From: Bacillus sp. ISL-45
Lineage (GTDB): Bacteria; Bacillota; Bacilli; Bacillales; Cytobacillaceae
Assembly (NCBI RefSeq): GCF_018613195.1
Contig: NZ_JAGGQQ010000026.1
Span: 1 to 42,806 of the forward strand
Direction: 5' to 3'
DNA: 42,806 nt
Below the pieces are notes generated by a model that was not told where the DNA came from, ran no database searches, and worked only from the letters and a program-made list of their open reading frames with translations. Positions within the stretch are counted from its first letter, which is position 1. Each line of letters opens with the position of its first letter. The translations under genes were made by a program, and so were the position numbers. This document shows, one piece after another, positions 3,358 through 24,685 of this stretch.

Positions 3358-3399
3358 ACTCAATGATACCAAGGCTTTTAACTATCATTCATAGAGCAG

Positions 3400-3429: not shown

Positions 3430-3465
3430 AGGTGGTGCCCAATTTGGTGCCATTTGTCATATGGC

Positions 3466-4895: not shown

Positions 4896-5035
4896 GAGAC
4901 ATTCCTTTCTTTTAAAATCTAAATTCAAGATGCAAAAATGGTGCATTCCAATTAAAAATCCGCATTGTAAAAAAAGCCTTGCAGTTTGCCGACATTATCG
5001 TCATATCGTCATATTTAATTAAAATTAATTAAGCC

Positions 5036-7403: not shown

Positions 7404-7414
7404 AGGATAAGTGT

Positions 7415-7597: not shown

Positions 7598-7621
7598 CAA
7601 ATTCACCTCCTTTAGAGAAAC

Positions 7622-7679
7622 AAAAAAACCCCTAGATTAAGAGAAGGTTAATTGTCTTTAACCTTTTCTAATCTAGGGG
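7622..7679 (-). terminator. Leader terminator (attenuator) upstream of replication operon
   Basis: On the minus strand CCCCTAGATTA and TAATCTAGGGG close a stem of about 23 bp that contains AAAAGGTTAA and TTAACCTTCT and has a 6-nt loop. The stem is followed directly by TTTTTTT. It lies between the promoter and the first operon gene, so it would stop most transcripts unless antiterminated. A 6-bp alternative pairing exists: TCTAAT at the end of the leader ORF can pair with ATTAGA in the 5' arm. The T-run is on the minus-strand side only, so it is directional. Confidence 0.8.
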
Positions 7680-7694
7680 CTGTCCCTTTTGATA

Positions 7695-7730
7695 TTAAAT
7701 TAGATGACTGGCAACTACTACCACCATCAT
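7695..7730 (-). CDS. Candidate 11-residue leader peptide
   Basis: Two consecutive ATG codons open a frame reading MMVVVVASHLI and then TAA. It lies between a consensus promoter and the leader terminator, only about 9 nt after the predicted transcription start, so it would be nearly leaderless, and no Shine-Dalgarno is visible. The four-valine run and its position suggest a ribosome-sensing leader ORF that could govern the downstream hairpin. Translation has not been shown, and this may be chance. Confidence 0.45.
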   Translation of the reverse strand: MMVVVVASHLI

Positions 7731-7744
7731 AAATGTAATCAAAG

Positions 7745-7771
7745 ATTATAATACATTTTATCTATTGTCAA
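7745..7771 (-). promoter_or_regulatory. Promoter of the integrase/replication operon
   Basis: On the minus strand TTGACA and TATAAT, both perfect consensus hexamers, are separated by 15 bp, slightly short. It faces the leader ORF and attenuator and would drive HTH, PrimPol, helicase, excisionase and integrase genes. Confidence 0.75.
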
Positions 7772-7824
7772 GGGACTATATGAAAAATTGAAAGTAATCC
7801 TTTTTTGATAATATAGTAAGGAAA

Positions 7825-7848
7825 GTCATGACGGTCATGTCGACATGA
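7825..7848. promoter_or_regulatory. Palindromic operator candidates
   Basis: GTCATGAC (7825-7832) and TCATGTCGACATGA (7835-7848, a perfect 14-bp palindrome) lie side by side in the divergent region. A TGATAATATAG -10-like element is just upstream on the plus strand. The arrangement fits a repressor operator for the lysogeny-type switch of the element. The binding protein is unknown. Confidence 0.5.
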
Positions 7849-7885
7849 TGAAAAGAATTAATTTGAAGGAAAAGGGTGAGGTATT

Positions 7886-8020
7886 TTAAAAAATCAAGAA
7901 TTTATTAAATCAGTAGATATAAAAATGAATCACGTACCACACCACGTTTTAAGCTACATGTCTTCGAACCATCTGCCAAATATATTTGGTAACGATACAC
8001 CAATATGGCTAAGAATGTGA
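7886..8020 (+). pseudogene. Small ORF with a good RBS but TTA in place of a start codon
   Basis: AAGGGTGAGG at 7872-7881 would place a start near 7886, where the codon is TTA. The frame then runs 44 codons to TGA at 8020. The only in-frame ATG near the front is at 7925, giving 31 residues (MNHVPHHVLSYMSSNHLPNI and a short tail) without its own ribosome binding site. It lies just downstream of the palindromic operator and could be the remnant of a small regulator gene. Nothing is recognised in the sequence. Confidence 0.25.
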
Positions 8021-8162
8021 CTACCATATAATAGCAACAGTATAGAAAGCATTAATAGTTTTACTTTTTAGAAAAAGGATTAGGAATTTTTTTGTTGAAC
8101 CTTATAAATATATATTTAGATATGTTAAATTATACAAGAGATAGCAGTAAGGGTGAAAAAAC

Positions 8163-8738
8163 ATGAGAAAGTTACGGGATAGTGACATACGGGAAGTCTT
8201 ATTAGAAGAATTGTCTCTTAAGTATTCTAATGATTTGAATACAAAAATAGTAAATGAATTAGGAATATTACATGGTCAATCCAGAATAGACGTTGCAGTG
8301 GTAAATGGTATATTGCATAGGTATGAAATAAAGAGTGAGAGCGATAATTTATTACGGCTTCCTTCACAAGTAGAGGACTACAATAAAGTTTTTGATCGGA
8401 TGACAATTGTTGTTCAAAGGAACTATTTAAATCAAGTTAGAGAAATTATTCCTAAATGGTGGGGAATTGCCTTAGTAACCCGTCAAAGCGGCCGATTAAT
8501 TATTAAAGAAGTAAGAAAAGGGCGTCAAAATTCAAAGTTAGATCCCTTTTCACTGAGTCATTTTTTATGGAGAAATGAAGCGATTGATGTTTTAAAAGAA
8601 AAAGGCCTGCAAAAGGGATATTTAAGCAAGCCAAGACATGAATTATACGAGAAAATCTGCACTTCACTTTCCTTAGAAGAAATTAAGCTTACGGTGAACC
8701 AATGCTTAAAGATGCGTGAAAATTGGAGAGTTCATTAA
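8163..8738 (+). CDS. sce7726 family protein
   Basis: A 191-residue protein with the sce7726-family signature: an N-terminal LRDSDIREVLLEEL helix, then ELGILHGQSRIDVAVVN..LHRYEIKSE, a nuclease-like D...ExK arrangement near residues 40-60, then IVVQRNYL and WWGIALVT. The fold suggests PD-(D/E)XK-like endonuclease ancestry. Members usually sit beside an sce7725/beta-family gene, and here the neighbour is indeed a beta-family gene, but convergent and overlapping by 50 bp at the 3' ends. The role of the pair is not established. Start ATG follows AGGGTG. Confidence 0.85.
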   Translation: MRKLRDSDIREVLLEELSLKYSNDLNTKIVNELGILHGQSRIDVAVVNGILHRYEIKSESDNLLRLPSQVEDYNKVFDRMTIVVQRNYLNQVREIIPKWWGIALVTRQSGRLIIKEVRKGRQNSKLDPFSLSHFLWRNEAIDVLKEKGLQKGYLSKPRHELYEKICTSLSLEEIKLTVNQCLKMRENWRVH

Positions 8739-9800
8739 TTGCTAGAGTGAGGTGATGGTTGGTTCCGATTTTTCTCCACGTTTCGGCATTTCCAGTACTT
8801 TCTGTATCGTTTGCACAACCAAAAATATATTTATCTCCATATGAATAAAACACCCCCGAGTATTTCGGGTGTAAAACTATCCTTTGACAGAGCTCCTGTG
8901 TCTGCTTACATTTTCCATATTTTGGTGTTGTCACGGAATACCCTCTGAAAATTAAATACTCATTATCAGCTGTATAACGAATGTTTGCCGACATTCTCAT
9001 TTTCCTGGGATCAAGTCGTGAGTATTCTGGATTGGAGATAATGTAATCCCCAAAGGATGGATATCTCGGTAATTTTTTATGAAGTAACTGTTGGTAAATC
9101 ATCCACTCGCTTCTTGGTATGCTACCATCAGTCCCTGTTTTAATTTCTGAAAGGTTTTCAGGGAATGCAGTAGCTACAAATGTAAAAGTTCGCCAGCTAT
9201 TAATATGGGGTATAGCCAAGATTGAGCCAACAATAAGATTAGTCATCCTATTTACTGGGTTTTTAGGATCAATATATCTATAGTCGATAATTAGGTCTAT
9301 ATCGGTTGGATCCACATTAAATGCTTCTAAAAAGCCTTGGATAATCCTATCTATATCGTCAAAATCTTCATCTAGAAGTCTAATAGCACAACCAGTTTGA
9401 TAGTTGTTAACTATTGAATACACTGCTTTTTGATAGTTAACTGCTCTTGATGGACTTGTTACAGGGATTGCATTGAGGTTTTCACTTTTCAACATTGTAA
9501 ATAAACTAATAAGTGGATGACTCCCATCTTCCATTAGTTCGTCGTCATCTGGGCAAATCTGATGGGCATCAATAAACACAGGATTATCATTGTTCCAACT
9601 TGTTTTAAGCTGTTCTTTGAAATTTTTCAAGTGGTCATCAAGTGATTTTTTGGGGCAATCGTTTTCAAAATCCCAATCAATAGGTGGTATTTCAATGACT
9701 GGTGTCATTAAGTCTTTTAAACTATGGTCCAAGACTTGTAATGCGCTTTGCTCACCTCTCTTCCATCTAATAATGGGTACGTAATGATCTGTTTAAACAT
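8689..9800 (-). pseudogene. Beta-family protein (T4 beta-like), frameshifted after the start
   Basis: The main frame encodes about 347 residues of the beta protein family (Beta_protein, Pfam PF14350 as I recall). The typical family N-terminus HYVPIIRWKRGEQ is also present and in frame with it, starting near 9788, but no start codon serves that frame. The expected start is the ATG at 9800, preceded by AGAGGAGGG, which reads M-F-K and is then one base out of frame. A single-base change between codons 3 and 5 therefore disrupts the gene, or the assembly has an error there. The C-terminus overlaps the convergent sce7726 gene by 50 bp. The family often partners sce7726-like proteins. Confidence 0.8.
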
Positions 9801-9950
9801 AAAAGCCCTCCTCTGTAGTAAACGTATAGCTGCAGATCGTGTTTGTTATGATATATACAAAATTAAAATAGGAATGTTTCAAATTAATGGGTACTATTTC
9901 CTTTTATTTGGGTTTTATTTGGGTATTCAGAAAAATAAAATTAAAAAATA

Positions 9951-9980
9951 TTGATAACTGTAGACTATTTTACTTATAAT
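9951..9980 (+). promoter_or_regulatory. Promoter of candidate ncRNA
   Basis: TTGATA and TATAAT with an 18-bp spacer. The next open reading frame begins more than 450 bp downstream, past a terminator, so the promoter appears to serve a short non-coding transcript. Confidence 0.65.
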
Positions 9981-9986
9981 TAAGAC

Positions 9987-10184
9987 AAAGATTTAACTCA
10001 GCCGTTTTGGTATGAGTATAAAATCAGTCTTAACGACTGGCGGATGACAGGGGAAACCCGAAAAAAATTCTTTACCTTTGGGTAATGGTGGCGCAAAGAA
10101 GCACAAAAAGGGATTGGGAGAAGTGTGTCCTTTTTAAAATAAATACTAGATATCCAACAAGCTGCTATAGTGGCTTGTTTTTTT
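9987..10184 (+). ncRNA. Candidate structured ncRNA (~200 nt) with own promoter and terminator
   Basis: From the predicted start to the terminator the transcript is about 200 nt, with no credible ORF. It contains several local stems: CAGTC-TTAAC-GACTG, a GGG-GAAA-CCC tetraloop hairpin, TTACC-TTTG-GGTAA, and AAAAAGG paired with CCTTTTT around a 17-nt loop. It ends in AACAAGC / GCTTGTT followed by seven T (10156-10184). The motif GCGCAAAG recalls c-di-GMP aptamers but the rest does not fit. It lies upstream of the replication-relaxation and TubZ genes, so an antisense, copy-control or centromere-linked role is possible. Confidence 0.55.
10156..10184 (+). terminator. Intrinsic terminator of the ncRNA
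   Basis: A 7-bp stem AACAAGC / GCTTGTT with a 10-nt loop is followed by a T-run. From here to 10442 there is no gene; the segment holds short inverted repeats such as ATGTATACAT and CTATGTATAG but no clear iterons. Confidence 0.85.
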
Positions 10185-10442
10185 GCGCTTAAATTTCGTT
10201 ATGTATACATCCTATGTATAGCCTATAAGCTATTTACTTTTTATAAATATTTAGAGATGTAAATTTACTAAGTTGTCCCCTAGTACTATACATAAGTGAT
10301 TCTTGCATAAAAATCTTCTCATCCATTGATACATCAGTGTTTTATGTGGTTTTTCTTTTTTTAAATTGACCGTGAGTAAATACCTTCTACGGCACCCCCA
10401 TAATTCAGCTTATTTAATCTGAAAAAAGAAAGGATGTAAGTA

Positions 10443-11555
10443 ATGATTTATTGGAGAAACACTGATATAACAGAAAAACAAGATCAAATTATCAAGCTAC
10501 TTTACCAATATCGTGCATTAACCAATGAACATATTAGGCGTTTAATTTACGACCATCTTTCGTCACCAGCAAGTGGACAAAAAGCAAACATTTCTAGATT
10601 CACCGCAGATTTAAAGAAAAAGAAGCTTATTCAGTCATTTAGCTGCCACCCTTATAGTAAAGAATTGATTCATTGTTTAACACCAAAGGGGATTGATTAC
10701 TATAAAGATCATGCACTAATAGATAAGGATGAACCATTAGCTGGATTTAAAGGGTACCCTCATGGAGATTTTGATTCAGGAATGTTAAAGCCTGGATTAA
10801 GGAATATTGAACATACAATGATGTACCTGGATTTTGCTATATGGTATAGCGATGTACTAGACATACGACATAATCTATACGCTGTAAAAAAGTATGTGTT
10901 TTATGATTTTGAAAATGCTTGGGGAAATTCAGTAAGTGGTCAAATGAAAAAGGTAAGACCTGACGGTGAAGTATTACGTCCGGAGGGGATTTATACCATA
11001 GAAATCGATTTGGCGACTGAACGCAAGAAAGTATTGACTGAAAAGTTTTTAAATTATTTCAGGTATTTAAATTCATGTGTAGAGAACGGGGAGGAACCAC
11101 AGTGGGTTGGTATGTTAGTAGTTTGTAAAGACTCTCAAATTGAATTTAAAAATGACCAAAGATTACATACTATCCTAAAATCTGCATGCGAAGGTTTGAA
11201 GTATTATAGCTGGACTTTTCCAGTTCGTATTATTAATCGTAAGCAAAATGTTGATTTAAGGAATCTTTTAATAAATGATCCAGAAACGCTTGAATCCATC
11301 GGTATTTCTATTCCTACTACCGATAATCCTGTTCTAGAGGAAAGGATTTTAAAGGAAGAAAGAGAGCAGCAAGAGCTAGCGGAACGTGAACGTAGACAAG
11401 AGGAATATCGAAGGAGAGAAGCTGCAAGGAAAGAACAAGAAAGGTTGTTACAAGAGCGAAAGCAAAGAGAATTAATTGAGGAGAAAAAACGAGAAGCGAT
11501 GGAAAGAGAAAAAAATAAAAGTGGTAACCGTCTGTTTGGTAAATTGTTTTCTTAG
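10443..11555 (+). CDS. Replication-relaxation (Replic_Relax) family protein
   Basis: A 370-residue protein with an N-terminal winged-helix region of the Replic_Relax family: TEKQDQIIKLLYQYRALTNE, then ISRFTADLKKKKLI (recognition helix and wing). The middle domain contains NIEHTMMYLDFA and an R-x-DGE-x-L...YTIEIDLATERKK core resembling a nuclease-like fold. The last 75 residues are a highly charged coiled coil rich in Glu/Arg/Lys. Family members occur on conjugative and rolling plasmids of Firmicutes. RBS is GAAAGGATG. It lies 102 bp upstream of the TubZ-like gene and is probably co-transcribed, so its DNA-binding head may be the adaptor linking DNA to the GTPase. Confidence 0.8.
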   Translation: MIYWRNTDITEKQDQIIKLLYQYRALTNEHIRRLIYDHLSSPASGQKANISRFTADLKKKKLIQSFSCHPYSKELIHCLTPKGIDYYKDHALIDKDEPLAGFKGYPHGDFDSGMLKPGLRNIEHTMMYLDFAIWYSDVLDIRHNLYAVKKYVFYDFENAWGNSVSGQMKKVRPDGEVLRPEGIYTIEIDLATERKKVLTEKFLNYFRYLNSCVENGEEPQWVGMLVVCKDSQIEFKNDQRLHTILKSACEGLKYYSWTFPVRIINRKQNVDLRNLLINDPETLESIGISIPTTDNPVLEERILKEEREQQELAERERRQEEYRRREAARKEQERLLQERKQRELIEEKKREAMEREKNKSGNRLFGKLFS

Positions 11556-11657
11556 ATATAAGGGTTTGGTTGTCTCCTCGGGATTAAATTGCGGAGTTTC
11601 TCCTATTCCTCTCTAATATTGAATAATATTCACTTTCTTGAAGAAAGGATGTTCTTT

Positions 11658-12749
11658 GTGAGAAGTTTAAATACGGTTAATGTTGATTTTGGTTTTGTAG
11701 GTTTGGGTTTGGCTGGAGGTAATGTTGCTGGGGCTTGTGTTAGTAAACATTCCTCGTATGGTGCATTGTTTATAAACACAAACAGCATGGATCAAAAAAG
11801 CTTAGCTAAAACGTATCCTTCCTATGGTCACTTCCTTATTGGAGGTGGATTAGGAACAGGAAGAAATATAAAAACCGCAGAAGAATTATATAAAGAAAAT
11901 GTAGATGAAATCAAAGACGCTCTAGGATTATTCGCAAGGACTGAGTTTATATGGGTATGTGCAAGTTTAGGAGGTGCAACAGGTACCGGTTTCTTGCCTG
12001 GTGTCATAAATATACTGACTGAACAGGGTTTTGCTGGTCACATTGGCCTTATCTTAATTATTCCCCATAAAAATGAGGAATGGAATCTCGCAGGACATGC
12101 TGTTCCAATTTTCGGTTCTGATAACCAACTAATTAAACAACTTCCAATTATCTTAATAGATAATACTAAACAAGAGAATGATATTTCTGCAGAATATCGC
12201 TCAATCGGGTATAGAGATTATTTAAATAAATCAAATGAAATGGTAGCAAGTGTGATTCATAACAACAATCTATTATCTTCCAGTATTCCATACTATGGCG
12301 GAAGTAATTTTGATAGTTTGAATTACTTAGAATTTATCAAAACACCTGGTATTTTGGCGTTCAGTTCGTTTAAAATTGATTTAAATATGGATTCAGAACA
12401 CTCAGAGATAAAGCGACTAAGCCACAAGATAGAGAAAAATATTATTCTATCAGATGGTTATGAATTAAATGATGCTAATATGATTCAAATTAGTTTCTTA
12501 ACTGGTGATTCTAATGCTACACATGTATTTACAGTCGATTTTAAAAATATTGTTTTTAAAGAAATGGAATCAATTTTGTTTCCGAAAAAATCAATTTCAT
12601 ATTTGACTACTGAAACAGCAATGTCTGAAGTGCAAATTAGTATAATGTGTGCAGGTATTCCAGTCGAGAGAAATGAATTAGTAAAGGAATTAATTAAACG
12701 TGCAAAACAAGAAGAACTTATGATGATGTTAGAAGATCTGGAGATATAA
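11658..12749 (+). CDS. TubZ/FtsZ-like tubulin-family GTPase
   Basis: A 363-residue protein with the nucleotide-binding motifs of the tubulin superfamily. GLGLAGGNVA is the first phosphate loop, ALFINTNSMD follows, then IGGGLGTGRN (equivalent to GLGAGANP of FtsZ), and the signature SLGGATGTGF stands near residue 105. IILIDNT follows the T5 region. It lacks the FtsZ C-terminal tail and fits plasmid and phage TubZ better. Such proteins form filaments that move DNA. The GTG at 11658 lies 9 nt after AAAGG; earlier in-frame starts overlap that site. A strong terminator follows. No separate TubR gene is seen. Confidence 0.88.
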   Translation: MRSLNTVNVDFGFVGLGLAGGNVAGACVSKHSSYGALFINTNSMDQKSLAKTYPSYGHFLIGGGLGTGRNIKTAEELYKENVDEIKDALGLFARTEFIWVCASLGGATGTGFLPGVINILTEQGFAGHIGLILIIPHKNEEWNLAGHAVPIFGSDNQLIKQLPIILIDNTKQENDISAEYRSIGYRDYLNKSNEMVASVIHNNNLLSSSIPYYGGSNFDSLNYLEFIKTPGILAFSSFKIDLNMDSEHSEIKRLSHKIEKNIILSDGYELNDANMIQISFLTGDSNATHVFTVDFKNIVFKEMESILFPKKSISYLTTETAMSEVQISIMCAGIPVERNELVKELIKRAKQEELMMMLEDLEI

Positions 12750-14266: not shown

Positions 14267-14649
14267 ATGTCAGAAATAAAAGGTATTCTAAGTCCAAGAG
14301 AAAAGGATTTGTTTAACGATTATAATTCTGCAATATTAAATACTAATATAGAAGATTTAGATAGTGTTTTAAATATCAAGATTTAATCCTGAGTATGATC
14401 AGGAAAGCAAAAGAGCGATATTATGATGAAAACCCTATTATAGTTCCAATTAATAAAGAAGGATATACGAAAGTAAAAGAGAGTAAACATGTATTGAAAG
14501 TCAGTGACTTCTTCACAAAAGAAGAAGCCGAAGAAGTTGACTTTTTAAGATGGAGAATGACTAAGACAATTTTGCCGGGTTCTAGAAAGCGAAAGCAAAA
14601 GAAAATAGAAAAAATAATAGCTGAAGCAAAAAAACGGAATGGATATTAA
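14267..14649 (+). pseudogene. Small protein gene, possibly split by a frameshift
   Basis: The ATG at 14267, with GAGGGAGGG upstream, opens a 39-residue frame ending at 14386. A second frame of 84 codons (14395-14649) begins at an ATG with no ribosome binding site. A one-base shift near the T-run at 14367-14371 would join them into one protein of about 124 residues, continuing SVF-KYQDLILSMIRKAKER. The second part is basic, with EEVDFLRWRMTK and a Lys-rich tail. This is probably a single gene broken recently; alternatively two separate genes. No family recognised. Confidence 0.4.
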
Positions 14650-14937
14650 GGTTTATTATAATTTTGTTCTTTTCAATTTGGTTAGTAATGAAGGTTATTT
14701 TGTTATATAGCGATCAATGTACCAGTCCCTGTCCCCACCATATAAATCCGGCTACATTGAAACTGGATATAGGTAATATATAGGGATCGGATCGGGAAAA
14801 GCCCTGCGGAGCCTATTTCGTTTATATGTAGTTGCAAGTGCTACCAGTTGTTGAGATTAGTAATGCGATGACTGGAACAAGGAAAGAGACTCGTAATCCC
14901 CCCTGCATCGGCTAAATGTGAGTGGAATTACTTCGTT

Positions 14938-15174
14938 TTACTGGTCTTCATGGAGCAGCTGTCCATTGAGAAGCCAGTGTTCTCTTAAACCATTTTTAAA
15001 AATTACTTTTATACCTAAATTATAAACATAATGTGAATTTAATAAAAGACTAGGAGAGAAATAATCAATAAGAATGATCCGGACATGCTTGAAAGAGATC
15101 AAATCAAATATATCAGTGCAATCCAAATTGTTATTAGAAATTTTAGAGATGCAAAATGAAATGACAAATGGCAA
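14938..15174 (-). pseudogene. ORF fragment with an HWLLNGQL motif
   Basis: A 78-codon minus-strand frame from a TTG start with no good ribosome binding site. Its C-terminus, KNGLREHWLLNGQLLHEDQ, resembles the 'W.LNG.LHREDGPA' repeats found in phage and mobile-element proteins. The front is hydrophobic and unremarkable. It is most likely a remnant or a small accessory protein. The region 14650-14937 before it has no convincing gene and is somewhat richer in G+C than its surroundings. Confidence 0.3.
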
Positions 15175-15910: not shown

Positions 15911-16647
15911 TTGAAAGGGAGTCAACAAAAGGGATTAGCTGAATTGAATATTTCAAGTATTATGAGACAGAGGTTATTCTTTCACGAGTATCAACCTTTA
16001 TGGAGCACTGAAATGGAAGAAATTTTTGCTTATGAGGCTTTGATTAGAACTAAACCTCAAATAAGTCCAGTTTTAATCTTTCGATATGGGAGAGAACAAG
16101 GAGTTCTTTATGAATTTGATAAAATATCCATTACTAATGCACTTAAAGGATATTCTCAATCTTATTATGAGAAATACAACCCTTTTTACTAACATATTTC
16201 CTTCTACGCTCGTGCACCCTAATTTTCCTGAATTTATTAGAAGATTAGTTCAAGACTATCCAATTATAAAAGGGAGGGTTGTTTTTGAAATTAACGAAGA
16301 ACCAATAGAGTTAGGGATTTGGGATGCAGATGCCTTTTTAGGAAGAATCAATCTATTAAAAGAAATGGACTTTCAAGTCGCTCTGGATGATTTAAAGCTT
16401 TCTTTAATTTCTGTGAAAAAAATTCTTAAATATAGTCCTGATTTCGTTAAATTGGACCGTTCCTGCTCAAAAAATCTTGCTCATTCAATAAACAAGCAAA
16501 ATGCAATTCAATCTTTATTGTCAAAGTCTCAGAACAATGTTGTTATTGTGCTCGAGGGGATTGAAAAGGAAGAGAATTTATTAACAGCTTCTTATAGGAA
16601 TCCCTGCAGTACAAGGATATTACATCTCGAGACCACATCTTTTATAA
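15911..16647 (+). pseudogene. EAL-domain (c-di-GMP phosphodiesterase-like) gene with two frameshifts
   Basis: Three frames read in order give one EAL domain. The first (15911-16192) has YQPLW..IFAYEALIRT, the EAL motif itself. The second (16193 onward) has VVFEINEEPIE, ALDDLKLSL, DFVKLDRS and VLEGIEKEENL. The third completes it with IPAVQGYYISRPHLL and TAA at 16647. Shifts lie near the T-run at 16184-16188 and near 16587. The DDFGTG-type loop has lost its FGTGY (now DDLKLSL), so activity may already have been lost before the frameshifts. TTG start follows AGGAAAG. It stands upstream of a c-di-GMP-linked cluster and may have belonged to it. Confidence 0.85.
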
Positions 16648-16700
16648 GCAAAAAGATCCAAAATATCATTAAGGATTAGTAACTCTAAATAAACTTTGAT

Positions 16701-16922
16701 ATGTACAGTTCTATAAATGAAAATGTTAAAAGGGCATTTATAATATTCAAAGCACATAAGGAAGAATATGGGATTGATATTAATAAGGTTAATTCCATAG
16801 AGTGAAACAGTGAAGTAACTATTCTACCTCAAGTCCCCGATTATAAGGTGGATATTGCAAAAATAAGAGAGAAAATTTCCCCTGGATATATGTTTTTGCC
16901 CACACAAAAATACCTCCGATAA
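16701..16922 (+). pseudogene. Short ORF interrupted by one in-frame TGA
   Basis: From ATG at 16701 the frame runs 34 codons to TGA (16803-16805) and then continues open for 38 codons to TAA at 16922. The reading is coherent across the stop (VNSIE, stop, NSEVTILPQVPDYKV), so it is probably a Trp codon mutated to TGA. No ribosome binding site is clear. No family recognised. Confidence 0.3.
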
Positions 16923-16970
16923 ATATAAATGTAGGAAGTGTTTTATACTGTCTCAAATGCATTAGTACAC

Positions 16971-16999
16971 CTAATAGGAAGTGTTTCCTATTAGTTTTA
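16971..16999 (+). terminator. Intrinsic terminator-like hairpin
   Basis: CTAATAGGAA and TTCCTATTAG form a perfect 10-bp stem with a 4-nt loop, followed by TTTTAT. The T-run is short. The rest of 16923-17472 shows no gene. Confidence 0.6.
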
Positions 17000-17472
17000 T
17001 AGATAAATAGGATTAAAAATAGGAGCTGTAGGTGATAGTCGGATAAAAACTGGTATTAGGAAATATAAATACAAGGAGCGCTAAATTTCAGATAAGACTG
17101 CCCCAGCTAATAGCTATGTGTCAAGAGTGAGCGCTGAGCAAAAGGTGCAATTTTAAGTGTGGAAGGTCAAAGTTAAAAATTCACTTCAGATTTTTAACTT
17201 AATTTTCCAGTAATAAAATACCAGGAATAGACGATATTTAATGTAAATAATATTCGAAAAAAGCACTTTTTAAAAGATAAAACCTCAAACAATCTAAAGC
17301 TTATTATAGCTATGATTGCCGGGTAACTGAAAAGATAACAGGGTTTCTGAATAGTTAAGCCCTTTTATTGCAAGCTCATAATTCTTTTTGGCGAATATTT
17401 CCCCTGTATGTTAAATCACAGTGAAATTAATTTATTTGTTTAATATTTCTTAATAGAATGGAGGTAACAAAA

Positions 17473-17790
17473 ATGGGGTTAACTATTAATAGAGAAATTC
17501 ATGAGACTACTATTATCTTAAAATTTAAAGGAATATTAGATATATCCACTGCAAATGTAATGGACCCATATTTAGATGAGATTCAAAAAATAAATACATT
17601 AGTTTTGGACTTTAGTGAATTGGAATTTATAGATTCTACTGGTATAGGTTCTATAATAAATTCAATTTACTTATCGCAGGAGAAAAATTTTTATCTTGAA
17701 CTTAAGGGAATTAATGAACTAACACATCAAGTATTTGAAACAATTGGTGTATATCACATATTGAATTCAATTCAAAAGGAGGTTGTTTAA
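17473..17790 (+). CDS. STAS-domain anti-sigma factor antagonist (RsbV/SpoIIAA-like)
   Basis: A 105-residue single STAS domain. The phosphorylation-site signature FIDSTGIGSI stands near residue 55, after LVLDFSELE. Such proteins are switched by phosphorylation of that Ser/Thr and dephosphorylation by PP2C enzymes. ATG at 17473 follows GGAGGTAAC; an ATG at 17458 lies upstream of that site and is not used. The stop codon overlaps the next start (TAATG), so it is coupled to the PP2C gene, its likely phosphatase. No sigma factor gene is nearby. Confidence 0.93.
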   Translation: MGLTINREIHETTIILKFKGILDISTANVMDPYLDEIQKINTLVLDFSELEFIDSTGIGSIINSIYLSQEKNFYLELKGINELTHQVFETIGVYHILNSIQKEVV

Positions 17791-18641
17791 TGTATCATGA
17801 TAGCCTCACTTACAATTTTGAAAATAAAACACAAGAAAATCAAAGTGTTTTGGATAGTTCATTGCAAAGGGAAATTAATTTAGCCAGAAACATTCAGTCT
17901 CAATTATTGAACGGAAAGACTCCAATTTTCGAAGGGGGAGAAGTATCAGGATCCTCACTCCCTGCTAGGTTAATTGGTGGAGATTATTATGATTTTTATC
18001 CTTTAGTAGATGGAAAAATTAGAATAGTAATTGGTGATGTAATGGGTAAAGGTATTCCAGCTGCGATGTTAATGATTTTGACAAGAGGGGCGTTTCGCAG
18101 TGCAGCAGAAAGCACTCAAAGCCCTGCCGAAACTTTAACAGCGATGAATCAGGCAATTTATGAAGATCTTAGGATATTAAAATCATTTGTTACCCTTTTT
18201 TGTGCTGATTGGAATCCGAAAACTGGAATACTTACATATGCGAATGCAGGTCATAACCTTCCTATTTTTATAAAAGGTAATAGTGACAGTATTGAAGAAC
18301 TTGCTAAGGTAAAAGGCATTATGGTAGGCGGGCTCCCAAACCAGGTCTATAAGGAAAATTTCGTTCAGCTTGAAAATAATGATACTATATTTTTTTATAC
18401 AGATGGAATAGTCGAGGCTCAGAATAAAGAAGGTGAACGATATAAATTAGACCGATTAATTGCTGCGTTATTAGACTGTAAACATTTAGGTGTTGGGGAA
18501 ATCGAGAAAAGCATCATGAATTCAATCAATAAATTTACCGAGGGAGTTTCACAAAAAGATGATATTACAATGGTTCTTTTAAAAATTACTCAAGAAAAGG
18601 CTGATATTACAAGTCTGAATTCTCCAGTACTAGGAGGTTAA
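17790..18641 (+). CDS. PP2C-family serine phosphatase (RsbU/SpoIIE-like)
   Basis: A 283-residue PPM phosphatase. Metal-binding motifs are all present: LIGGDYYDFY (residues 61-70), VIGDVMGKGIPAAMLM (80-95), YANAGHNLP, FFYTDGIVEAQN and the final KDDITMVLLK. The short N-terminus (residues 1-30) is a likely helix linker, LQREINLARNIQSQLL, seen in RsbU-like enzymes. It would dephosphorylate the STAS partner(s) encoded next to it. The start overlaps the STAS stop, and its own stop overlaps the next ATG, so the genes form one translational chain. Confidence 0.95.
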   Translation: MYHDSLTYNFENKTQENQSVLDSSLQREINLARNIQSQLLNGKTPIFEGGEVSGSSLPARLIGGDYYDFYPLVDGKIRIVIGDVMGKGIPAAMLMILTRGAFRSAAESTQSPAETLTAMNQAIYEDLRILKSFVTLFCADWNPKTGILTYANAGHNLPIFIKGNSDSIEELAKVKGIMVGGLPNQVYKENFVQLENNDTIFFYTDGIVEAQNKEGERYKLDRLIAALLDCKHLGVGEIEKSIMNSINKFTEGVSQKDDITMVLLKITQEKADITSLNSPVLGG

Positions 18642-20686
18642 TGCAAATGCAAAGTATTTTATCTAAAGGGAATAGCATTAATGATGCCATAAGTATTGGA
18701 CTGGAAATCCTGGGTACAACTAAAGAGAATGTAAACATTGAGATCATCGAGCATGGAACAAAAGGGATTTTAGGTATTGGATCAAAAAAGGCAATGGTGC
18801 GACTTACAAAGTTTGGAAAAACATCCTCCGGCCTGGATTTTGATATTTTATCAGATGAACTTGAGAAGGCTGTAATTGATTTGGAAATGAACAAGGGTTT
18901 AGAAGATAATAACCTTGATAATTTGGAATCAGAAAGGCATGAAGGAAAGGTCTGGATTAAGAATGGTAATATTTACTGCCTGTCCTCAGCCAGTCATTTT
19001 CCAACTGTAACGATCCAAAAGGGTGTACGTCTTTATAAAAATGGAATACCGGTAGAAGAAAAAACGACAATAATTACAGAGTTTGATGTGTATGAAATTA
19101 AAGCTGAAGACGAAGAGGCGGCATCTAACTGGAAAGTCTTTTTGGATGAGTACAAATTAAAAGCTTATTTACACATTGTGCCTGGTTATAAAATGGTTCG
19201 AACCATTCCTGATATGGAACCTGATAATCATATCAATCTTTCTGCTCTCGAGAGAAAAGAGCAAAGTAATTCACTAACCTATCTGGAAGTTATACAAAAA
19301 CTTGATGAATTAAGGGTTAAACATGGTTTTAACCAGTCTGAAATCAATAAGGCAATGGAAGCTACGGAGACAGCAACTTTTGAAATTGCTACTGGAATAC
19401 CAGCTAAACAAGGGAAAGATGGCTGGGTAGAGCTTAAAGTTGATGTAGATGTTCAGGAAGGACCGAAGGAAAGAAAAGATGGAAGTGTAGATTTCCGTGA
19501 AATTAAATCAATCCCCAAAGTAGAAAGAGGGCAGGTAATCGGTGTCATACACCCTCCTATTGTTGGGGAGCCAGGATATACGGTTACATATGAACCGCTT
19601 CCTGCAAAACAAGTCTTCCCTATCATTCTAAATGCAGGCCGGGGAGTACTCGAAGTAGACGGCAAAATAGTTGCGACCGAATCTGGGCGGCCTTCTATTG
19701 AACGGAGAGGACAGCTTTTAAAAGTCAGCATTGTTCAAAAGTTAACACATAAAGGCACTGTTGACTTAACTACAGGCAATATTCACTTTTTAGGTGATGT
19801 AGAAATATTAGGTGAAGTCGCAAACAATATGGTTGTTGAAGCTGAGGGAGATATTAATGTCCATAAAACAGTTAACAATGCATTACTTGCTTCTACAGGT
19901 GCGATTATTTCTTACGGAAGCATTATAGGTTCTGAATTATCAGCGGGTAAAAATAATATGCTTGTTACTGAATTGGGCCATCTTTTAAGGCTGATTAATA
20001 ACCAGGTTGAAAAAATTATTTCTTTCATCAGCCAGTTGACTCAATCTCCGGGATTTAAATCCAGTGATTTTTCAAGAGGAGGCTTACAGCCTCTGATCCG
20101 GATATTGCTGGAAAAGAAATTTAAGAACTTCCCGCCACTTGTAAAAAAATATACAGAGGCTGTAAGAAGAGGAGAAAGATATCTAGAAGATGAGAAATGG
20201 GAAACGATAGGGACCTCTTTGTCTAATCTCTTTTTATCAATTCACAATGAAGCTGTATCACTTCAAAAAATTTATGATGTAACTGAAAAAATGAAGCATT
20301 TAATTGAATTTGCTGAAACTCCTGTAGAACCTGACTCATTTATAACCATTCCATATGCACTCAATAGTCAGCTTTATTGTAGTGGCAATATTTTAATTTT
20401 AGGACAAGGCAGCGTAAATACAAAAATACATGCTGGCGGAGTCCTTAAAATAACAGGTGTTTTACGTGGTGGTGAGGTCTATGGAAGAATGGGCGTTGAA
20501 GTTAATGAATCAGGTGCCGAAAGTGCCCCAGCTACAATGATCGCGGTTCCAGAGGATCAAAAAATACGGATAAAAAAAGCGATGGAAGGAACAATTATTA
20601 AGATAGGCACTTCTAAATTTACTTTTAAGGAAACTAGTTATAATATAAATGCTTATCTGGATAAGGATGGTAAAATCGTTTTGTAG
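18641..20686 (+). CDS. DUF342/FapA-family protein with Jag_N-like N-terminal domain
   Basis: 681 residues. The first 55 (SKGNSINDAISIGLEILG..., GTKGILGIGSKKAMV) match the Jag_N / KhpB N-terminal domain. The rest is the FapA (DUF342) polymer-binding-like fold: repeats with VDVQEGPKERKDGSVDFREI, GEPGYTV and a beta-helix rich in GxI repeats with VNNALLASTGAIISYGSIIG. A helical insert lies near residues 450-570. Proteins of this family have been linked to flagellar assembly and cell polarity in some bacteria. It sits between two STAS-gene neighbours in an operon, which suggests a regulated surface or localisation factor here. Start could also be the ATG at 18647. Confidence 0.88.
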   Translation: MQMQSILSKGNSINDAISIGLEILGTTKENVNIEIIEHGTKGILGIGSKKAMVRLTKFGKTSSGLDFDILSDELEKAVIDLEMNKGLEDNNLDNLESERHEGKVWIKNGNIYCLSSASHFPTVTIQKGVRLYKNGIPVEEKTTIITEFDVYEIKAEDEEAASNWKVFLDEYKLKAYLHIVPGYKMVRTIPDMEPDNHINLSALERKEQSNSLTYLEVIQKLDELRVKHGFNQSEINKAMEATETATFEIATGIPAKQGKDGWVELKVDVDVQEGPKERKDGSVDFREIKSIPKVERGQVIGVIHPPIVGEPGYTVTYEPLPAKQVFPIILNAGRGVLEVDGKIVATESGRPSIERRGQLLKVSIVQKLTHKGTVDLTTGNIHFLGDVEILGEVANNMVVEAEGDINVHKTVNNALLASTGAIISYGSIIGSELSAGKNNMLVTELGHLLRLINNQVEKIISFISQLTQSPGFKSSDFSRGGLQPLIRILLEKKFKNFPPLVKKYTEAVRRGERYLEDEKWETIGTSLSNLFLSIHNEAVSLQKIYDVTEKMKHLIEFAETPVEPDSFITIPYALNSQLYCSGNILILGQGSVNTKIHAGGVLKITGVLRGGEVYGRMGVEVNESGAESAPATMIAVPEDQKIRIKKAMEGTIIKIGTSKFTFKETSYNINAYLDKDGKIVL

Positions 20687-20706
20687 AGATTGAAAGGGGC
20701 ATGGAA

Positions 20707-21018
20707 ATGATAGAAGTAAAGTTGAATCCTAATGGAGAATACCTTGAAGTAAGTATAATAGGCGATTTAGATATAGATAGCACTGAATTGGTTGAAGATG
20801 AACTGCTTCCGGAATTAGGGAAATATAAAATTATAAATCTTATTTTCAGCGATGTTCCTTTTGTCGATTCATCAGGTATGGGACTCCTAATAAACTTAGT
20901 GCAATCCCTAAGTGAAAAAGGAATAAAAGTAACGATATCAAATGTAAGAGATGATGTTATGGAAGTATTCGAACTGCTGCAATTGCCTGATATTTTAGGT
21001 GATCAGGTATTTGTGTAA
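20707..21018 (+). CDS. Second STAS-domain protein (anti-sigma antagonist-like)
   Basis: A 103-residue single STAS domain with the motif FVDSSGMGLLINL near residue 58. The ATG at 20707 lies 7 nt after AAAGGGG; the ATG at 20701 is too close to that site. Together with the first STAS protein, the PP2C and the RsbT-like domain of the 22065 gene, it fits a partner-switching network. Two STAS proteins in one operon suggest two targets or a stressosome-like arrangement; this is inference. Confidence 0.9.
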   Translation: MIEVKLNPNGEYLEVSIIGDLDIDSTELVEDELLPELGKYKIINLIFSDVPFVDSSGMGLLINLVQSLSEKGIKVTISNVRDDVMEVFELLQLPDILGDQVFV

Positions 21019-21157
21019 ATTCTATCTAAATTTCATAAACTGTTCTGAAAATAAAAAAAATTAATGATACGTATTTTTAAAATATTTACCCCCGTGTTCC
21101 TTTTACCTATTGATGAACTATTAAACTAGAATTTAAATTAAATTAAATAGAATTTAT

Positions 21158-21250
21158 CTTAACGATAAAGGCAAACTTACCTAAAGGTGAGGACGCAAAG
21201 CCACGGGCCTAAAGCATTTTTGTCATGGTAGCCGGGTTACCGAAGAAGAC
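21158..21250 (+). promoter_or_regulatory. c-di-GMP-I (GEMM-I) riboswitch aptamer
   Basis: The GEMM-I core is plain: GGCAAAC, a short hairpin CTTACC-TAAA-GGTGAG, then GGACGCAAAGCCACGGGCCT, AAA and a second stem ending GGTAGCCGGGTTACCG. The tetraloop, the ACGCAAAGCC joining segment and the receptor-like GGGCCTAAA agree with the consensus. An intrinsic terminator follows 16 nt downstream. It controls the peptide-DUF5317-HD-GYP operon. Whether c-di-GMP turns it on or off cannot be decided from sequence alone. Confidence 0.93.
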
Positions 21251-21265
21251 GGAATATATACTTTT

Positions 21266-21296
21266 ATCCGCCTTACTTCAAGGCGGATCTTTTTGT
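21266..21296 (+). terminator. Expression-platform terminator of the riboswitch
   Basis: ATCCGCCTT and AAGGCGGAT form a perfect 9-bp stem with a 5-nt loop, followed by CTTTTTG. It lies between the aptamer and the first gene, so ligand-dependent termination is the likely mechanism. Confidence 0.85.
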
Positions 21297-21380
21297 CTTC
21301 ACTTAGGTATTTAAACACGTTTTCGGTCCTTGGAATTTTGTTATCGCATTCACTTTAACTTGAAAGGAGGTGAATAATAT

Positions 21381-21467
21381 ATGAAAGCACGCTTAAAAAG
21401 CTTTTTAGCAGTTGCAGCTGTAATCGCAGCAACATTTGGAGCAGTAATCGGCAAGCCTTGGTGGTAA
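21381..21467 (+). CDS. 28-residue hydrophobic peptide under riboswitch control
   Basis: First gene after the riboswitch, with an exceptional ribosome binding site AAAGGAGGTGA spaced 8 nt from the ATG. The product begins MKARLKSF, has an Ala/Val-rich hydrophobic core (residues 9-22, AVAAVIAATFGAVI), and ends GKPWW. It has the form of a pre-peptide or signal-like segment with a distinct Trp-Trp end, and could be a secreted or membrane peptide signal. No family recognised. The next gene, DUF5317, lies 74 bp downstream and is probably co-transcribed. Confidence 0.75.
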   Translation: MKARLKSFLAVAAVIAATFGAVIGKPWW

Positions 21468-21541
21468 GAAAATGGAGGACTCGGAGGATCATTGGAAAAT
21501 CCGGGTCTTTTTAAATCAATTTTTTTAGGGGGATTCCTCGA

Positions 21542-22078
21542 GTGAAATATATTCTCTTATTTGCAATATTGCTTACACTATTAAAAGGGAGAAATGCCCT
21601 TTCTTTTATAAATAATGTGAAATTCAAGTGGTCCCTGGTCATATTAATTAGTTTTAGTGTCCAAATTGCACTTGTATTCATTACGATTGAATCAAAAGAA
21701 AAATTTGGGCTTATTCTTATTGTTACTTTTGTAGGGATTATTGCAGGTCTGTCAAGAAATAATAAAATTCCAGGTGTAAACTGGATCATCATTGGTGCTG
21801 TTTTGAATTTATTAGCTCTCCTTTTAAATGATGGACTGATGCCTGTTTCTGAAGAGGCATTAAATACGACAGGGCAACATTTGGAGTCTTTTGAAACAGA
21901 CTCCCGCCATCAAGTGATGTCCCATTCTACAGATTTTTGGTTTTTAGGGGACTGGATACCCGTTGTAAAATACGTTATAAGTCCTGGTGACATCTTTGTA
22001 GCTATAGGCATAGTTTTGCTTATTTATATGAATTCTTCGAGTATGAAGCCAAAGGTGAGATTAAATGAAGGTGATTAA
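21542..22078 (+). CDS. DUF5317-family membrane protein
   Basis: 178 residues with about five hydrophobic segments: residues 1-15, 25-50, 53-70, 75-98 and 150-166. Between the last two is a periplasmic/extracellular-like loop with DGLMPVSEEAL, and the DFWFLGDWIP segment is typical of DUF5317. Start GTG follows GGGGGAT. Its 3' end overlaps the HD-GYP gene by 14 bp, so the two are coupled. Family members of this kind are uncharacterised; a sensor or transport role for the peptide is speculation from gene order. Confidence 0.8.
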   Translation: MKYILLFAILLTLLKGRNALSFINNVKFKWSLVILISFSVQIALVFITIESKEKFGLILIVTFVGIIAGLSRNNKIPGVNWIIIGAVLNLLALLLNDGLMPVSEEALNTTGQHLESFETDSRHQVMSHSTDFWFLGDWIPVVKYVISPGDIFVAIGIVLLIYMNSSSMKPKVRLNEGD

Positions 22079-24092
22079 CTGGTATACTATTTCCCTGATT
22101 TTAATCGGCTGTATATCATTTATTTTTTCTCTCAGCCATCTTGATTTTTCAATGGCAAAAATTTTAATTTTAATGACTTGCATAGTGATTGTTTTAGAAA
22201 TATTCCCTGTTAAATTACCGAGTGGAGACACATATGCAGCGGGTAGCATCGGATATTTGTTTCTATTAATCAATGGCGGATTTTCTTATGCAGTGCTGGC
22301 TATTTTTATCGCAACCGGAACCTATTACTTAATAAGTTTGAGAAAGATTAGAATTCCTGTCATTCGTCTTTTGGTTACTATTGGGATGTATGTAACTTCC
22401 ATGTTGGCAGCGTCGATTTCCTGGGAATTCGCTCAAAACGCAAATGTTTTTTTGGGAGTTGGGATGGTTGCGATTGTCTTTGAATTAGTGAACTTTTTTC
22501 TTTTGGAAGGAATAGAAGCAACTGTATTCAGAAAAAAGATGTTCAACAACATTTTACAAAAATTAACAGAATTGATTATACCAATCTTAATCAGTATACT
22601 TGTCATCTCCAGACTTGCCCTTGTTGAGTCAGAACCAGAATTAATGATATCAATATTATATACATTTTTCTTTTTACTGTTTCTCATTTACTTTTCCCAT
22701 GAATTTACTTATCAATTTTTTCTTCGAAAATCAACTTCAAATGCTTTTATGAAAATATTGGAGGACAGTATAAATCCTCATTTTGCAGGCCATGGAAATC
22801 GGGTTGGAATGATTTGTGACCTCATTCTGGAGGATATAGGATATCCAAAAAGAAAAAGAAATAACTTGGTCCAGATAGCCTCCATTCATGATATTGGAAA
22901 AAGTTTACTTCCTTCATATATATTTAGAAAGCGTGGAGATTTAACATTATCAGAGGAACGTGAATACAAAAGTCATTCGGAAAAAGCTGTAGAGATTGTC
23001 AAAGCAATGTTTTCAAACGAGTCATTTCCAAAATGGGTTCTTCATCACCATGAACGGTGGGATGGAAAAGGTTTCCCAAGTGGTTTAAAGGGTGCGGAAA
23101 TACCATTAGAATCAAGAATCATTGCATTGGCTAATGAGTTAGATCACATTTTAACTCGACATAAAGACCCTGAAACGATTTTAAAGTTATTAGAAGAAAG
23201 GTCCGGAACTTTGCTGGATCCAATTTTAGTTGGGAAGATAAAATCATTCCATATTGAAGCAATAATAGGAAATATGAATTTTCCTTTAGCTAATGATGAA
23301 TTGCAACATGCAGCTGAATTGACTGAAGCCCAGTATAGTCAAAATGAGACCTATTCAAATATTGGGGAATCATTCTTTATCCAAGTAAAGGGTGGTAAAG
23401 TTTATTCACCAAAAAGCATTTTTTCAAATAGCCTTTTCCAATCACTTGCAGATTCAGCAATTGAGCGCCAGGAACTTGTGCATGATACTTTTATGCATGA
23501 AAATATTACTTTGGACCTCCATGCCCAGCAGCTACAAAATGGGGATGTGACAATTTTCGCCCATGACCTGACCCCATATTTGCATTTTAGGAAACAATTA
23601 GAATCTAGTATTTTAGAGTCTTATGCAGACATAATTAATAAACTGTCAGAAGAAAAAATAAGGTTGCATACTTCAAGGGAGACTTTGTTGAATCACCTAG
23701 GCGATAAATTGGCAGAAGTTGAAATAACTAAAAATTCTGATGTACCAAAAAGCAGGGGAATCATTAAAAGCATTCTTGAACAATATGCGCCCCACTTAGA
23801 TTCTATGAAGGTTCAGGTGGCAGTAACAGAGGCAGTAACCAATGTATTAAAACATGCCATTGGAGGGAAGCTGTCCATTACTATAAAAGATAACCGTATG
23901 CAGTTCTTTATTTCGGATAAAGGATCCGGAATACCACTCCATGAAATTCCGAAAACGATTTTAGTTTCGGGATACTCCAGCAAAAAGTCCTTGGGGCAGG
24001 GCTTTAAAATGATCGCTAAATTCTGTGATGAGGTACAAATCCAAACGTCTTCTAATGGAACATTCGTCTTGATTGAATATAATTTACGATAG
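22065..24092 (+). CDS. Membrane HD-GYP phosphodiesterase fused to RsbT-like ATPase domain
   Basis: 675 residues. Residues 1-212 contain about seven transmembrane helices. An HD-GYP domain follows (about 228-385) with HDIGK at 275-279 and HHHERWDGKGFP near 327-337; the GYP Tyr is Phe here, but the metal ligands are present. A middle region (about 400-540) may be PAS-like. The C-terminus (560-675) is a GHKL ATPase of the RsbT/RsbW type: EAVTNVLKHA (N box), DKGSGIP (G1) and SLGQGFKM (G2). It could hydrolyse c-di-GMP and phosphorylate STAS proteins encoded upstream. Expression under a c-di-GMP riboswitch would close a feedback loop. Confidence 0.9.
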   Translation: MKVINWYTISLILIGCISFIFSLSHLDFSMAKILILMTCIVIVLEIFPVKLPSGDTYAAGSIGYLFLLINGGFSYAVLAIFIATGTYYLISLRKIRIPVIRLLVTIGMYVTSMLAASISWEFAQNANVFLGVGMVAIVFELVNFFLLEGIEATVFRKKMFNNILQKLTELIIPILISILVISRLALVESEPELMISILYTFFFLLFLIYFSHEFTYQFFLRKSTSNAFMKILEDSINPHFAGHGNRVGMICDLILEDIGYPKRKRNNLVQIASIHDIGKSLLPSYIFRKRGDLTLSEEREYKSHSEKAVEIVKAMFSNESFPKWVLHHHERWDGKGFPSGLKGAEIPLESRIIALANELDHILTRHKDPETILKLLEERSGTLLDPILVGKIKSFHIEAIIGNMNFPLANDELQHAAELTEAQYSQNETYSNIGESFFIQVKGGKVYSPKSIFSNSLFQSLADSAIERQELVHDTFMHENITLDLHAQQLQNGDVTIFAHDLTPYLHFRKQLESSILESYADIINKLSEEKIRLHTSRETLLNHLGDKLAEVEITKNSDVPKSRGIIKSILEQYAPHLDSMKVQVAVTEAVTNVLKHAIGGKLSITIKDNRMQFFISDKGSGIPLHEIPKTILVSGYSSKKSLGQGFKMIAKFCDEVQIQTSSNGTFVLIEYNLR

Positions 24093-24211
24093 TCAGGTTG
24101 AAATTGTTATGTATATATTTAGAAAACTATGCAATATGGATATCTTCAATAAAAAGCATTTGGAAAAATAAACTAACGATTAGGAAAAAAACTTTGCTAG
24201 GAGACCCAAGA

Positions 24212-24685
24212 ATGAAAAGTGAATTTGAGAATATTTTTTCAAAGTTGCAAAAAGATATGGTTGCCATTTGTTTAGAGTATGTTGACTTTAATGCAGAGGA
24301 TGTTTTTATCTATTGTTCCTATGAATCTGGATTATATCAATTTGACGTTTTCTTTAAGATCAATGGGAAAATTGTCCATAAACATAAGCTGAATGATGCA
24401 ATAAAAGAACTTAACAATCAAAACAACAAACGCGGTATAGACGTTTCAATAGAAAGACAGCGATTTTTATTAGAAGATGGAATAGCACACTTAAAACTCA
24501 TTCATGAAAAATTCAAAGTCTCCAATCATAATATGCCAAGTGAGATAAAGTTACATTATAATGTTAAACAAAATAGGTTAAAAGAAAAATATAAATATGA
24601 TTCCGTATATTCAAGTGATACCTATCTATTAAACCAAGCAAAATTTGATTTGTGGTTTAAAGAAGTCGAAAAAACAGTAATTTAG
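24212..24685 (+). CDS. YezG/DUF600-like immunity protein
   Basis: 157 residues from the ATG at 24212, after CTAGGAGA; earlier in-frame codons have no ribosome binding site. The N-terminal helix, a VFIYCSYESGLYQFDVFFK strand pair and the C-terminal PSEIKLHYNVKQNRL..KYKYDSV..SDT...FDLWFKEVE motif follow the pattern of YezG-type antitoxins (DUF600), which neutralise LXG-type polymorphic toxins. No toxin gene is intact nearby, and downstream genes are decayed immunity genes. An orphan immunity role is likely. Confidence 0.65.
   Translation: MKSEFENIFSKLQKDMVAICLEYVDFNAEDVFIYCSYESGLYQFDVFFKINGKIVHKHKLNDAIKELNNQNNKRGIDVSIERQRFLLEDGIAHLKLIHEKFKVSNHNMPSEIKLHYNVKQNRLKEKYKYDSVYSSDTYLLNQAKFDLWFKEVEKTVI

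Follow-up and report, generated by a model that had tools for sequence, protein, structure and literature searches.

The stretch of DNA analysed here, referred to as the window, is an entire contig of 42,806 bases from Bacillus sp. ISL-45 (NZ_JAGGQQ010000026.1). It carries the genes of a partner switch beside a riboswitch for cyclic di-GMP (c-di-GMP). On the plus strand, genes for STAS1 (17458-17790; Pfam STAS, 2.1e-11), a PP2C/SpoIIE-type phosphatase (17790-18641; Pfam SpoIIE, 1.5e-49), FapA (18641-20686) and STAS2 (20701-21018; Pfam STAS, 2.7e-15) form a group spanning 17458-21018. This is followed on the same strand by an aptamer with its terminator (21160-21288), a 28-codon open reading frame (ORF, 21381-21467), a gene for a DUF5317 membrane protein (21542-22078; Pfam 6.4e-32) and one for a 675-residue protein in which an HD-GYP domain is fused to a GHKL domain (22065-24092; HD_5 3.6e-27, HATPase_c_2 1.3e-9). 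The last two genes overlap by 14 bases. FapA consists of Jag_N, FapA_N and FapA beta-solenoid regions according to Pfam and alignment A1. A sequence-only reading had named all of these elements, and Pfam, Rfam, folding or ORF analysis located each of them where it had placed them.

The fusion protein begins with a membrane sensor domain, which we named MEM (22065-22706), seen as the helical part of a structure model and shared with other proteins; Pfam gives no match to it. The HD-GYP domain (22746-23222) and the GHKL domain (HATPase_c_2, 23754-24071) follow. The structure model, computed from a 12-row alignment, has a mean pLDDT of 78.7 and a pTM of 0.48. It contains helices up to about residue 185 and a long helix (190-236) that runs into the HD-GYP helices. 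C-terminal to these come a small alpha/beta part (about 436-501), a helix (503-527) and finally the GHKL region.

The cluster recurs in other genomes. A search of 398 genomes of the class with the FapA profile A1 (E at most 1e-60) gave matches in 54 genomes at 61 listed places; 43 of these places were read and, together with five from an earlier search for relatives, they make up 48 loci. A kinase domain scoring at least 100 bits is present in 23 of the 48. It is fused to HD-GYP in the window and in L046, L047, L048, L049, L068, L069, L073 and L082-L085, and it is free in the other eleven. A c-di-GMP-I aptamer is found at 16 of the 23 kinase-bearing loci, fused or free, and at 14 of these it is confirmed to lie 5' of a cluster gene on the same strand; the aptamers of the other two, L071 and L074, were found in extended sequence. 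No aptamer was found in the available sequence of L051, L082-L085, L092 and L101. FapA loci without such a kinase have an aptamer in 6 of 25 cases, two of them far from FapA, and another of the six (L089) is a fusion locus truncated by the end of its contig.

The fusion itself was found in 12 of the 398 class genomes, full length in 11 and cut by a contig end in one. FapA lies within about 3 kb of it on the same contig in 11 of the 12; in the twelfth (G073) they are on separate contigs, FapA with STAS2 close to the end of one and the fusion close to the start of the other. Among the scan matches that have the fusion at full length, a single one comes from a named relative, Mesobacillus harenae (60% identity). 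Gene order varies: the L049 fusion is part of the operon itself (STAS1, aptamer, fusion, HAMP sensor, PP2C, FapA, STAS2), and in L052 a free kinase takes its place (aptamer, kinase, STAS1, PP2C, FapA, STAS2). Since both the neighbourhood of fusion and FapA and the association with the aptamer recur, the cluster is, on comparative sequence evidence, a conserved module for partner switching that is tied to a c-di-GMP riboswitch. The sequence-only reading would have failed had its two gene groups rarely been neighbours elsewhere; given the repeated link between aptamer, fusion and STAS-PP2C-FapA genes, it does not fail on this count.

In eight loci (L050, L051, L071, L074, L076, L088, L090 and L094) the set of STAS, PP2C, FapA, STAS and kinase apparently lies within a larger operon, whose other genes encode GTP cyclohydrolase I, PTPS, a short-chain reductase, an alpha/beta hydrolase, an acyl-carrier protein, an AMP-forming ligase and a HAMP sensor. 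This appears to be a pterin-type biosynthetic operon, assigned by gene order and size, with Pfam matches for these genes taken from L051 only. All of the eight except L051 have a c-di-GMP-I aptamer.

The HD-GYP domain of the fusion belongs to its family by the HD_5 match and also matches solved chains of PmGH and other HD-GYP enzymes. PmGH has eight metal-binding residues, of which seven are common to both HD-GYP groups; replacement of D183 by alanine abolishes its activity and the same change at D305 lowers activity markedly, according to the accessible part of PMC4159591. In PmGH numbering, H189, H221, D222, K225, H250, H276 and H277, which are six metal ligands and K225, are conserved in all 12 fusions. 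The position of D305 holds N in nine fusions, S in two and D in one (L083), and D183 is present in none. By contrast, among 54 unfused HD-GYP domains without a kinase, D is found at 305 in 53 and at 183 in 42, and because of this contrast the fused domains are, judged from their alignment, a systematically altered set. The window domain carries D183N, E185H and D305N, and F replaces the GYP tyrosine. It therefore lacks one of the seven ligands shared by both groups, D305, and keeps the other six.

The sequence-only reading had the protein degrading c-di-GMP, and this part of it is not supported as put. Loss of the metal ligand D305 makes a weak or regulatory HD-GYP domain likelier than a plain phosphodiesterase. 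Weak or altered activity is possible, given that the domain retains six ligands as well as K225 and that D183 is also missing from the nearest solved domain. The foremost rival explanation, which is that of the sequence-only reading, has the membrane protein as both an active c-di-GMP phosphodiesterase and a kinase, in a loop by which c-di-GMP controls how much of the enzyme that degrades it is made. The retained ligands (six of the eight of PmGH, with K225, in every fusion) speak for it, as does the best-scoring solved chain, which is named a 3'3'-cGAMP-specific phosphodiesterase and has S at the place of D183. The replacement of D305 in 11 of the 12 fusions, set against its near-constancy in unfused domains, the complete absence of D183 and the effects of the two PmGH mutations (PMC4159591, from the same accessible part) make this rival unlikely.

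In Bacillus, SpoIIAB/SpoIIAA/SpoIIE and RsbW/RsbV/RsbU are systems made up of a GHKL kinase, a STAS protein with an acceptor serine and a PP2C phosphatase. The same three components are located together in the cluster. Both STAS proteins of the window (DSTG in STAS1, DSSG in STAS2), and most relatives with a readable stretch, carry the acceptor motif DS[TS]G. The window phosphatase retains its catalytic motifs (GGDYYDF, DVMGKG, NAGH, YTDG and DDIT) and the kinase retains its N box and G boxes. The nearest named models to the kinase are SpoIIAB (43.4 bits, cut-off 135) and RsbW (31.3 bits, cut-off 145), so that neither NCBIfam cut-off is reached, and the same two proteins are its nearest solved structures. 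The sequence-only reading called the domain RsbT-like, which is at most a putative label based on motifs: no RsbT model matched the kinase in the profile search, in which no RsbT sequence was compared. Unlike the kinases of the SpoIIAB and RsbW systems, that of the window carries a membrane part, falls under both cut-offs and adjoins FapA. As to a remnant of the HD domain in the free kinases, hhalign comparison of alignments A4 and A5 covered 30 columns with a probability of 18.6%, and a Pfam scan of the free kinases gave nothing relevant to it.

These relationships bear on a second rival, in which the GHKL domain is a kinase of the RsbW/SpoIIAB type that holds a sigma factor encoded elsewhere and frees it when the STAS proteins are dephosphorylated. 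SpoIIAB and RsbW are indeed its closest relatives by model and by structure, but its scores are far under the family cut-offs, and none of the nine window ORFs scanned with Pfam is a sigma factor, a weak test, since it took in neither the loci of the relatives nor the remainder of the genome. We regard this rival as quite improbable.

Elsewhere FapA occurs in a group with flagellar genes (PMC11607428, in the part of the article available), and motility is therefore a possible output of the module. In two further loci, L103 and L072, FapA genes lie directly behind c-di-GMP-I aptamers (two aptamers in L072) and no kinase match of at least 100 bits is present; this placement points to FapA itself as a c-di-GMP-linked gene.

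The window aptamer (21160-21244) scores 83.7 bits with Rfam model RF01051 (E 3.4e-15), for which the gathering score is 35. It is followed by a terminator hairpin and a T tract (21266-21288), found by folding. A covariance model, R1, built from 15 aptamers revealed a second, decayed c-di-GMP-I aptamer on the plus strand of the window at 17252-17331 (29.2 bits, E 1.9e-5), shortly 5' of the STAS1 gene. The 3' half of this match is well preserved, with damage in the GGCAAA and GACGCAAAG parts. L046 carries an intact aptamer 5' of STAS1, at the head of the whole operon. The simplest account is that an ancestral switch leading STAS1 has decayed in the window, where another now sits between STAS2 and the peptide ORF. 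This decayed aptamer and the conservation of the peptide, described below, go beyond what the sequence-only reading had noticed.

Folds were computed for transcripts ending in the terminator loop at 11 loci. The 3' strand of P1 pairs with the 5' arm of the terminator in five of them (window, L048, L049, L052 and L073), and in L046, L050 and L076 the pairing is made instead by the stretch directly 3' of that strand. Pairing of this antiterminator kind suggests that the design is an OFF switch in most of the loci folded. The peptide's ribosome-binding site comes directly 3' of the aptamer in L068, L089, L112, L113 and L202, which suggests translational control by the aptamer in these five loci.

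The short ORF behind the riboswitch (MKARLKSFLAVAAVIAATFGAVIGKPWW) has a strong ribosome-binding site and encodes a peptide of 28 residues with the C-terminus GKPWW. It has relatives in 10 further loci, giving 11 loci in 10 genomes and ten distinct sequences. All 11 peptides share an M[KR] start, a hydrophobic core and a PW[WGFL] end. The aptamer is upstream in the peptide's own unit in nine of the 11 loci, the exceptions being G073, where the contig starts, and G142. The peptide is 5' of DUF5317 in nine loci and directly 5' of the MEM sensor domain, without DUF5317, in the other two (L202 and L203). A blind search for the peptide in 398 genomes gave matches in 170 at E of at most 1, mostly noise, and in six below 1e-3; the G446 peptide (E 0.0035) was accepted by its context, and the G142 peptide and a second one in G127 escaped the search and came to light only on inspection of the sequence 5' of the sensor gene. 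In 1.68 Mb of scanned sequence, which is redundant and was partly chosen with this cluster in view, every short ORF that has a ribosome-binding site and a PWx end is at a locus with DUF5317 or the sensor domain.

A hairpin 3' of the peptide ORF, at 21477-21508 in the window (-13.7 kcal/mol, then a T tract), is present and terminator-like in nine of nine loci tested. A short message for the peptide is therefore probably made in excess. Between the window and L046 the peptide ORFs differ by 8, 2 and 12 base changes at codon positions 1, 2 and 3; eight codons change the amino acid and six are silent, and between the window and L047 these numbers are 12 and 9. The least probable of the rivals, that the ORF is the leader peptide of an attenuator in which charged tRNA is sensed through Trp codons and the hairpin, with no function for the peptide as such, can draw on the tandem Trp codons of the window ahead of the hairpin, on the constancy of that hairpin and on the excess of changing over silent codons, but it is very unlikely given that the last residue may be W, F, L or G, which leaves one constant Trp, that the peptides retain their charged start and hydrophobic core while second codon positions change least, and that micropeptides of other sequence sit 3' of DUF5317, where they cannot be its leader.

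DUF5317 (PF17248) is recognised in the window at 111.1 bits, with a gathering cut-off of 25, and the structure model of the protein has a mean pLDDT of 93. Among the matches listed, its model gave no clear solved relative; comparison with the profile of signal peptidase II (LspA) reached a probability of 2%, and no LspA is among those listed of the 25 chains matched in structure. G073 has DUF5317 and the sensor protein as an in-frame fusion of 861 residues. Four of the 11 peptide loci (L200, L201, L202 and L203) have the sensor domain attached to PAS and histidine-kinase domains; in L204, which has no PW peptide upstream, it is attached to GGDEF-EAL. The distant fusions (L082-L085 and L049) have the sensor domain with neither DUF5317 nor a PW peptide in the loci read. 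Peptide, DUF5317 and sensor domain are thus often found together, with outputs that differ. In alignment A7, LGDW is found in all seven DUF5317 proteins with an upstream PW peptide and in none of 12 others, which may reflect a single clade.

More widely, DUF5317 is present in 115 of 398 genomes of the phylum, and an HD-GYP domain lies within about 1.5 kb in 23 of the 30 DUF5317 loci returned. Other small ORFs are found beside it. An ORF of 28-37 residues with the pattern ...ALTSG[FY][KR].. towards its C-terminus overlaps DUF5317 or follows it closely 3' in class members (L137-L140, L142, L148 and L064-L066). An ORF ending like ...AKFPWH lies about 58-73 bases 3' of DUF5317 in L150, L157, L158, L159 and L161, and one ending ...KFPIK or RIPLK is at DUF5317 in L069 and L073. 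No small hydrophobic ORF was found near DUF5317 in 19 of 36 loci inspected. A micropeptide ORF occurs within 150 bases downstream at 14 of 42 DUF5317 loci and 3 of 493 control genes, and within 450 bases upstream at 7 of 42 and 10 of 493, by a criterion fixed after examples had been seen, with known loci included in the 42 and with possible overlap between the 14 and the 7.

Gram-positive bacteria produce short hydrophobic peptide pheromones. The PW-tailed peptides resemble these, by description only, in having a basic start, a hydrophobic stretch, a short tail and an adjoining receptor-like gene. We tentatively propose that the peptide, whether membrane-bound or released, is the ligand or a regulatory subunit of the sensor domain and that DUF5317 handles or presents it. 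The three would then form a riboswitch-gated unit whose output is an HD-GYP-switch kinase or a histidine kinase, and DUF5317 in general would have a family of micropeptides as its partners, next to HD-GYP proteins across the phylum. Our confidence in this proposal is well short of even.

For the cluster as a whole the following mechanism can be envisaged. Bound c-di-GMP would stabilise P1, break the antiterminator and stop transcription, and the peptide, DUF5317 and the kinase fusion would be made when c-di-GMP is low. The peptide and DUF5317 would set the state of the sensor domain, and the HD-GYP domain, with little or no enzymatic activity, would relay the state of its ligand (c-di-GMP or a relative) to the kinase. 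The kinase would phosphorylate one or both STAS proteins and the phosphatase would remove the phosphate. The STAS proteins would then act on a partner, for which FapA, as the constant neighbour, is a better candidate than a sigma factor. A riboswitch-linked partner-switching module of this design, with an OFF switch, a sensor relay, STAS phosphorylation and FapA as partner, is our best explanation of the cluster, held with modest confidence, a little past the even mark. Of the sequence-only interpretation, the link between riboswitch and partner switch stands as a recurrent one, and the plain c-di-GMP phosphodiesterase becomes the less likely view of the HD-GYP domain.

Several points weigh against this explanation. 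The scans for FapA and the fusion scored two candidates per genome, and the gene-order counts ignore shared ancestry. The fusion loci L082-L085, four in number and all from one family, lack an aptamer, which means that the module can do without riboswitch control, and the antiterminator is absent from the folds of L069, L088 and L090. One fusion, that of L083, retains D305, and D183 is neither universal in unfused domains (42 of 54) nor present in the nearest solved domain, which has S in its place, so the substitutions fall short of proving that activity is lost. The kinase, with SpoIIAB and RsbW as nearest relatives, could be of the type that binds sigma factors, and FapA is a candidate output of the STAS proteins from gene order only.

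To the left of the cluster, on the plus strand, is a pseudogene with an EAL domain (15911-16679), as had been claimed, split over two frames (15911-16192 and 16086-16679). Pfam matches EAL in the second only (1.3e-19), and both pieces align to parts of an intact 246-residue EAL protein in L047 and L048. Stand-alone EAL genes are also present at L051, L069, L090 and L094. In L047 and L048 a response regulator gene (about 14369-15128), of the LytTR type in L048, lies between the fusion and FapA-STAS2. A 195-codon ORF at 24098-24685, six bases 3' of the window fusion, has no Pfam match and no BLAST match in L046-L052. Further to the left, at 3261-12749, a selenocysteine tRNA (tRNA-Sec) is followed by a tyrosine integrase and then a block with Prim-Pol, Beta protein and Replic_Relax and a weak tubulin/FtsZ match. 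This is probably an element integrated beside tRNA-Sec; an att repeat was looked for there and none was found. In L046 only 2.5 kb separate tRNA-Sec from the aptamer of the cluster.

The nearest known systems appear to be SiaABCD, HsbA-HsbD and BgrV-BgrR, as described in the accessible parts of PMC7647112 and PMC8457831. In SiaABCD of Pseudomonas aeruginosa a PP2C phosphatase (SiaA), a kinase (SiaB) and a STAS-like protein (SiaC) are likewise tied to c-di-GMP (PMC7647112, PMC8457831). Its output is the diguanylate cyclase SiaD, whereas none of the nine window ORFs scanned has a GGDEF domain, and the window kinase is fused to HD-GYP and preceded by a c-di-GMP aptamer. In HsbA-HsbD of P. aeruginosa and BgrV-BgrR of Sinorhizobium meliloti, STAS phosphorylation likewise governs c-di-GMP enzymes, but the output is a diguanylate cyclase, and the available part of PMC8457831 names no riboswitch, DUF5317, peptide or FapA. 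The HD-GYP domain of the fusion shares its family match and six metal ligands with PmGH and with 3'3'-cGAMP phosphodiesterase 3 (5z7c); it differs from PmGH-like enzymes in the replacement of D183 and D305, in the attached switch kinase and, in the window, in the F for the GYP tyrosine. Trigger phosphodiesterases are comparable, by concept only, in that a phosphodiesterase is used as an effector of c-di-GMP.

The literature searched, mostly without subscription journals, did not contain DUF5317 as a term. Neither FapA, STAS, PP2C and c-di-GMP nor partner switching, c-di-GMP, HD-GYP and STAS were found together there, and neither the fusion nor the peptide is named in titles among the matches listed. 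The terms c-di-GMP riboswitch and partner-switching occur together in one paper, apparently a Xanthomonas survey. From its sequence and gene order, then, the module is a real and conserved variant of partner switching, undescribed in the literature searched, with c-di-GMP as its RNA input and an altered HD-GYP domain at the kinase. The peptide arm is its most novel and least explained part.

Gram-negative bacteria have partner switches that govern c-di-GMP enzymes (PMC8457831, as far as its text was available). In contrast to these, c-di-GMP would here come in upstream by way of an RNA switch, and the switch kinase forms one protein with the HD-GYP domain. The cluster offers a testable Gram-positive case in which a c-di-GMP enzyme domain may have been reused as a sensor for protein phosphorylation. 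The unit of peptide, DUF5317 and sensor provides a functional lead for DUF5317 and for a membrane sensor domain that has no Pfam match in the window protein, as well as for micropeptides of 24-37 residues, which annotation may miss. The cluster thus suggests a new way of coupling c-di-GMP, a peptide and protein switching.

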